Assembly: GCA_027483945.1 (NCBI GenBank)
Contig: JAIXTM010000006.1
Span: 1 to 64,000 of the forward strand
Direction: 5' to 3'
From: Hyphomicrobiales bacterium
Lineage (GTDB): Bacteria; Pseudomonadota; Alphaproteobacteria; Rhizobiales; Beijerinckiaceae
Length of the DNA: 64,000 nt
Below the pieces are notes generated by a model. The model was not told the DNA's origin. It did no database searches and was given only the letters and a program-made list of their open reading frames with translations. The position numbers were made by a program, and so were the translations under genes. Positions 27,391 to 27,501 of this stretch are shown here, piece by piece (position 1 is the first letter of the stretch; each line of letters opens with the position of its first letter).

Positions 27391-27427
27391 TTACCAAGGG
27401 AGTGCTCTACCACTGAGCTACAACAGC
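27391..27427 (-). other. attP core: 5' half of a tRNA-Thr(GGT) gene
   Basis: Read on the minus strand, GCTGTTG (acceptor), TAGCTCAGTGGTAGAGCA and CTCCCTTGGTAA give acceptor, D-arm and anticodon loop of a tRNA-Thr(GGT). After the loop the sequence stops pairing as a tRNA (AGAAGGGATGC instead of a GGGAG stem). Identity ending at the anticodon loop beside int is typical of attP crossover sites. Confidence 0.82.
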
Positions 27428-27439
27428 AGCGCGGCGCTT

Positions 27440-27468
27440 TCCCTAGCGTTGAGCCTCACGCCTGACAA
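27440..27468 (-). promoter_or_regulatory. Promoter for the reconstituted tRNA-Thr
   Basis: TTGTCA (27468-27463), 17 bp, TAGGGA (27445-27440), start near 27433, 6 nt before the tRNA 5' end. After integration it would transcribe the hybrid tRNA gene. Confidence 0.6.
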
Positions 27469-27481
27469 CCCCACCCCGGAC

Positions 27482-27501
27482 AAAAAAGGCCGAAGGAGGC
27501 C
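27482..27501 (-). terminator. Leftward intrinsic terminator
   Basis: GGCC-TCCTTC-GGCC followed by TTTTTT on the minus strand. It insulates the tRNA promoter from leftward phage transcription. The stem is only 4 bp, so efficiency is uncertain. Confidence 0.5.

Follow-up and report, generated by a model that had tools for sequence, protein, structure and literature searches.

A phage attP that carries the 5' half of tRNA-Thr(GGT) behind a putative host-type promoter

When a phage brings part of a host tRNA gene with it, which half is it, and from which promoter is the rebuilt gene then transcribed? The question is raised by a window of 64,000 nucleotides, the whole stretch of DNA analysed here, in which the beginning of a tRNA-Thr(GGT) gene lies next to an integrase gene. 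The window belongs to a contig of 77,404 bp (C1) whose ends form a 104-bp exact direct repeat; C1 thus closes into a circle of 77,300 bp, and this circularity rules out that it represents the end of an integrated prophage. Phage genes on C1 include those for an integrase, a RecT-like protein, tail and capsid. Judged from the sequence, the site with the 5' tRNA half, being internal to the circular map, is attP.

The integrase (Table 1) has R195, H305, R308 and Y340, which are invariant in an alignment of eight sequences and are read as putative catalytic residues. The tRNA half begins 41 bp beyond the end of the integrase gene, on the opposite strand, and is present as a single copy on C1. Consistent with the first-pass annotation, which had the phage supplying the tRNA-Thr(GGT) 5' half up to the anticodon loop, the half is an exact 37 nt and no 3' half was found on the integrase side of 27391-27427. 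A 52-nt stretch including this half matches the tRNA-Thr of the contig's own genome bin at 87% (E 2.9e-11). ARAGORN reports tRNA-Met as the sole tRNA in the window and none in the remainder of C1 (L005), ruling out a phage with a whole tRNA-Thr. The site is likewise not a classical attP with a 3' half, which would keep the host promoter in place, as the 5' half alone is present. Identity to the tRNA stops at the anticodon loop, and tRNA halves in relatives likewise stop within or just beyond the anticodon stem-loop; crossover would thus fall within the loop. The promoter-like sequence before the tRNA half and the hairpin with six T residues upstream of it, both described in the same annotation, are present, the hairpin being weak.

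Table 1. Features of the attP region in the window, and relatives in which both prophage ends were located
Feature	Position	Strand	Remarks
Tyrosine-recombinase integrase, 369 aa	26240..27349	+	PF00589 E 4.8e-11; phrog_1 E 1.1e-35
Putative arm-type integrase site GGTGCCAG, integrase side, inside integrase gene end	27311..27318	-	GGTGYCAG, +109 from tRNA start
tRNA-Thr(GGT) 5' half, bases 1-37 (37 nt)	27391..27427	-	G1 through anticodon loop TTGGTAA
Putative crossover segment, anticodon loop TTGGTAA	27391..27397	-	anticodon 27393-27395; tRNA identity stops here
Promoter-like TTGTCA-N17-TAGGGA	27440..27468	-	TTG-N20-TA geometry, also in 5/5 other phage-side Thr/Val cassettes
Hairpin GGCC-TCCTTC-GGCC then T6, possible terminator, weak	27482..27501	-	own strict scan
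Putative arm-type integrase site GGTGCCAG, distal side	27519..27526	-	GGTGYCAG, -99 from tRNA start
Endolysin, nearest identified minus-strand gene aimed at cassette	29400..30413	-	phrog_181 E 1.5e-49
Roseococcus pinisoli prophage	stranded half C5:161838; whole tRNA-Thr C5:198905	same strand	37 kb apart
Aquisalinus luteolus prophage	stranded half C3:276978; whole tRNA 326541	same strand	49.6 kb apart
B. retamae prophage	stranded half C167:4799; whole tRNA-Val(CAC) 50323	same strand	45.5 kb apart
IMG/VR record of L105	stranded half 86; whole tRNA-Val(GAC) 40351	same strand	40 kb apart

The motif GGTGYCAG occurs six times on C1, two of the copies being the pair at -99 and +109, read as putative arm-type integrase sites. 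Its positions are -100 and +110 in the Roseococcus prophage, -98 only in L069 and +112 only in L068, and L073 has none. If the pair is so read, the promoter-like box and the hairpin sit inside attP.

Integrase relatives were compared in 162 rows, made up of 80 of at least 517 confirmed from IMG/VR, 80 of 131 confirmed from GTDB genomes, the window and Acetobacter phage phiAX1. Single-sequence searches of IMG/VR with the window's integrase and with the exact 38-nt tRNA half gave no match, and a DNA search of phages gave one short tRNA match. The tRNA library excluded the ARAGORN calls of L093, L126, L128, L199 and L023, together with calls that did not fit a simple canonical pattern. A tRNA fragment follows the integrase in 122 of the 162 rows; in 24 of the 40 rows without a detectable fragment, 142 bp or less follow the integrase gene. 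Labelled by geometry alone, apart from three relabelled by hand (L148 and L172 to 5' half antisense, L071 to 5' half sense), the 122 rows comprise 76 with a 3' half after the integrase on the same strand, 30 whose 3' half or whole tRNA runs on the other strand with its 3' end toward the integrase, 13 in the window form, with an opposite-strand 5' half (window counted), and three with a tRNA start on the same strand. Suppliers of a 3' half number 106 and suppliers of a 5' half 16. The cassette is not unique to this phage, the same architecture being found in 12 of the 121 other rows. The same-strand layout with a tRNA start is seen in L139 (3706-3748), L145 (3494-3536) and L071 (3757-3814), where the element would likewise supply the tRNA 5' end. 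In L029 (1312-1352; G303), bases 1-41 of a tRNA-Arg precede a distant integrase relative and no 3' half follows, possibly another element of the 5' type.

Of the 12 other window-form loci, all except L220 were searched for the tRNA in their genome or record, and both ends were located in four of these 11. In each, the stranded 5' half lies beside the integrase gene and the whole tRNA lies at the integrase-distal end on the same strand, behind phage DNA, so that the layout of Islander islands (displaced 5' fragment and whole tRNA in the same orientation) is present. For L172, L203 and L219 the whole tRNA is on a separate contig, and the records of L068, L069, L073 and L096 show the half alone. 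In Roseococcus, the outer side of the stranded half has EF-P, cupin and LysE genes, and the whole tRNA comes after tail and endolysin genes. In Aquisalinus, hisG lies outside the stranded half, a phage exonuclease gene precedes the whole tRNA, and EPSP-synthase-family (murA-like) and hisD genes follow it. Phage replication genes (polymerase, exonuclease, DnaB-like) precede the whole tRNA in B. retamae, as do baseplate-like and endolysin genes in L105. ORFs directly beside some of the junctions gave no match. The right flank in Roseococcus opens with another integrase, and of the 400 bp surrounding the stranded half Roseococcus-genus relatives match no more than 127 bp; the host side there is thus assigned from gene content. 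This second integrase (L258, 14059-15588; phrog_1, DUF6538) begins about 80 bp after the hybrid tRNA-Thr, and two elements seem to share the R. pinisoli tRNA-Thr from opposite sides. A single complete tRNA of the relevant anticodon, behind element DNA, was found in three of the four cases, the remaining one being a virus record; B. retamae has a further, untyped 75% tRNA match (L256).

Empty sites were available for B. retamae. Twelve loci were obtained from 40 Bradyrhizobium genomes and nine were compared, L268 being B. retamae itself and L278 and L279 being left out. The DNA outside the B. retamae stranded half adjoins a complete tRNA-Val in all nine loci (within about 10 bp of alignment), and this tRNA-Val is 75/75 identical. 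The 1.5 kb before the B. retamae whole tRNA has a match in none of the nine, L275 offering 195 bp of that flank. In that lysogen the host promoter has thus stayed with the stranded half, and another sequence now stands before the whole tRNA. On the right flank, the 1.5 kb beyond the whole tRNA is also unmatched in these relatives; the order there is a DNA-polymerase-IV-like gene followed by peptidase and TPP-enzyme genes. The first-pass annotation had proposed that integration replaces the host promoter and 5' half. The junctions of four relatives and the empty sites of B. retamae bear this out, and replacement of both is well supported on these sequences; no lysogen of this phage was found in its bin, so that the same behaviour would be carried over to it from its relatives.

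Whether the promoter-like box is more than a chance sequence was judged by its spacing. The box ends 12 nt before the tRNA start. A generic sigma-70 scan reports no promoter at the cassette, TAGGGA being poor by the E. coli consensus. For Caulobacter RpoD, the available text of PMC8144410 gives TTGaCgS / GCtANAWC with a looser -35 of TTGNCNS; the window's -35, TTGTCAG, fits the looser form and GCTAGGGA fits the -10 partly, the consensus being that of Caulobacter. The geometry scored was the window's own, TTG-N20-TA, within 75 nt before the tRNA half. On the 77.4-kb contig, both strands counted, this spacing is present 11 times, or 0.0036 per 50 positions. All five other phage-side Thr/Val cassettes have it (four prophages with both ends and L071, which is phage-side by position only, its contig ending inside the tRNA), or 6/6 with the window. 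Among 3'-half relatives, the 75 nt before the 3' half were scored in 70 distinct of the 76 same-strand loci, the 30 opposite-strand loci being left out; the exact geometry occurs in none and a looser N18-20 form in four. The difference between 5/5 and 0/70 gives a Fisher probability of 5.8e-8 with sequences treated as independent despite their kinship. Eight further window-form loci have the geometry in five cases, the exceptions being L073 (60 nt available), L219 and L220. Within the same-strand layout it is found in L071 and in neither of the two tRNA-Ser loci with a 5' half after the integrase (L139, L145), L139 having the looser form. Host-side stranded halves have it in three of four cases (absent in L254), and of 31 distinct sequences upstream of tRNA genes in the bin five show it at the expected position.

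A source for the box is suggested by the genus of Roseococcus pinisoli, in which 11 of 19 loci have the exact 37-nt half. Two of the 11 are the R. pinisoli junctions; the other nine, in eight genomes, are complete tRNA-Thr loci, and the geometry is found in all nine. TAGGGA itself is present in four of them, and L289 reads GGGGTTGTCAGG, as does the window. Since these tRNA-Thr loci share the box, the phage box resembles a candidate tRNA-Thr promoter of that group, and it looks like a putative host-type promoter. One genome of the genus (G496) has two complete tRNA-Thr(GGT) loci, L284 and L297, with different upstreams; duplication, a mixed bin or another such lysogen are possibilities.

The host of the phage may also belong there. 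Its bin (G000, 22 contigs) has one tRNA-Thr(GGT), which is unbroken. Joined to the 3' half of that tRNA, the phage half forms 6/7 acceptor and 3/5 anticodon stem pairs; joined to the Roseococcus 3' half it forms 7/7 and 5/5. The nearest integrase among the matches listed is from Roseococcus (69%). Across 40 kb of the Roseococcus region, matches to the window phage comprise the integrase, the preceding ORF and one tail protein (antisense frames aside); with just these three genes shared, the two phages are otherwise different. By tetranucleotide composition of the parts compared, the correlation is 0.875 with Roseococcus and 0.835 with the bin, a weak signal. No 16S sequence was found in the bin, and among 12 named genomes compared through one of its proteins Bradyrhizobium came nearest (64% over part of that protein), which gives a loose placement at best. 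The phage may have come from a Roseococcus-like host and been misplaced in the bin.

Taken together, the locus is very probably an attP of reversed polarity: it would serve a temperate phage with a tyrosine integrase acting in the anticodon loop of tRNA-Thr(GGT), and the phage contributes the tRNA 5' half and a promoter where a 3' half is usual. After insertion, the host's own promoter and 5' half would remain stranded next to the integrase gene; at the far end, the 5' half from the phage would complete the host 3' half. The rebuilt tRNA would then be transcribed from the phage-borne, host-type promoter, which has the core on one side and the distal putative arm site on the other, and the hairpin may, as a guess, lower read-through. 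We infer the firing of the promoter, the crossover in the loop and the same behaviour by this phage from the arrangement of the sequences.

The 5' half could instead be recombination homology or a relic, with a box that is inert or due to chance and from which the tRNA half is never expressed. The weak -10, the generic scan and the two Ser-type loci without a box agree with this, but the half starts precisely at base 1 and recurs unchanged in Roseococcus-genus tRNA-Thr loci, the geometry separates 6/6 cassettes from 0/70 controls, and three of the four prophages show a single complete tRNA of that anticodon behind element DNA (L256, at 75%, aside), so a relic appears very improbable. Transcription could also enter from a phage gene promoter farther upstream, as in the archaeal pTN3-like elements; expression from an integrase promoter in archaea is described in the accessible portion of PMC8371274, and tail and endolysin genes aim at the cassette in both the window and Roseococcus. 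The integrase gene here, however, points away, the endolysin gene lies 1.9 kb from the hairpin with plus-strand ORFs in between, and the hairpin with T6 precedes the promoter-like box. Phage late genes are expected to be silent in a lysogen. Read-through is accordingly hardly to be expected as the source of the tRNA.

A further proposal, compatible with the replacement of 5' half and promoter, is that the hairpin with T6 is a true insulator against phage transcription. The hairpin is one of two such sites found on both strands of 77.3 kb by our own strict scan; 20 mononucleotide shuffles gave 0.55 on average. Its stem is just 4 bp (-7.2 kcal/mol), however, a terminator scan requiring five pairs finds none at the cassette, the strict scan finds no such site in the five other phage-side cassettes, and the nearest identified opposing gene is the distant endolysin. 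The earlier suggestion that a terminator shields the tRNA is thus unsupported, and an insulator is doubtful.

How often polarity has changed was estimated on a quick tree of 119 of the 122 rows, in which 34 of 111 inner branches are weak and the fewest changes between 5'- and 3'-supplying forms number approximately 13. The window clusters with L148, L069 and L068, all window-type (95 SH-aLRT). By this approximate count, one integrase family appears to have changed polarity repeatedly, and the inverted-repeat anticodon stem-loop would let the core sit either way in attP. A wider and tentative idea is that in this alphaproteobacterial family repeated half-swaps are eased by the dyad symmetry of the stem-loop, that the takers of 5' halves also gain a host-type tRNA promoter inside attP, and that the single copy of an essential tRNA in a lysogen thereby comes under phage control. 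If this is true, a host could be tied to its prophage, or a phage could tune translation.

Comparable systems are known in part. In Islander, a 5' tDNA fragment marks 159 islands and a 3' fragment 3760, as given in the available text of PMC4383910. Its 5'-fragment islands, like the relatives here, have a whole tRNA gene at one end and a displaced 5' fragment at the other; the word "promoter" is absent from that text, whereas here an element-side promoter-like box with its geometry is found and polarity switches within one family. According to the part of PMC8371274 available, which cites Williams 2002, restored bacterial tRNA genes retain their original promoter with very few exceptions. The same text describes the pTN3-like elements, in which, as here, the restored tRNA is severed from its own promoter; those elements use the promoter of the integrase gene, whereas here a separate host-type promoter would lie inside attP with the integrase facing away. 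In tRNA-dependent lysogeny, as presented in the portion of PMC10865867 available, the lysogen also relies on phage DNA and a phage-borne promoter for an essential tRNA, but those phages carry a whole tRNA and the host gene is not rebuilt, whereas here a half is carried and the gene would be rebuilt. C1 has no complete tRNA of the disrupted isotype, and the phage is not of that kind. The phage phiAX1 has a related integrase (37% identity) and a half that ends near the anticodon stem-loop, as here; unlike the window, it and most relatives (106/122) carry the 3' half, and the host promoter should there stay in use. In Sinorhizobium, tRNA-Thr(GGU) is among three hot spots, and inactivated tRNA genes are replaced by element-borne ones (PMC11476347, available text). 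The available parts of PMC9897764, PMC5495485 and PMC2951348 add nothing on promoters of restored tRNAs, and a phage-borne tRNA promoter inside attP is unnamed in the titles and abstracts surveyed, which cover few subscription papers. Within that literature, replacement of 5' half and promoter is a known but rare kind, with clearer evidence for a promoter here than in the cited texts, and what appears new, on the quick tree, is the repeated switching of polarity inside one integrase family.

Insertion of this kind would hand control of an essential host gene to a switch that the virus carries. Nearly all tRNA-targeting elements, by the Islander counts, keep the host promoter, which this phage and its relatives would replace, and a tRNA found once in the searched genomes would then run from phage DNA. 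Because related integrases use the same tRNA with opposite polarity, the determinants of polarity become testable, as does the need for promoter capture in the survival of the 5' kind. The case also warns that a working tRNA beside a prophage may have a foreign promoter.

Other features of the phage deserve mention. A small host-nuclease-inhibitor-like ORF lies at 28008-28253 on the plus strand (phrog_1518). The complete tRNA-Met(CAT) is at 54374-54449 on the minus strand, a few kb from the capsid gene. A 967-aa Toprim (primase-like) ORF at 13044-15947, minus strand, has central matches to Hom_end and LAGLIDADG_3 and is probably interrupted by an intein.
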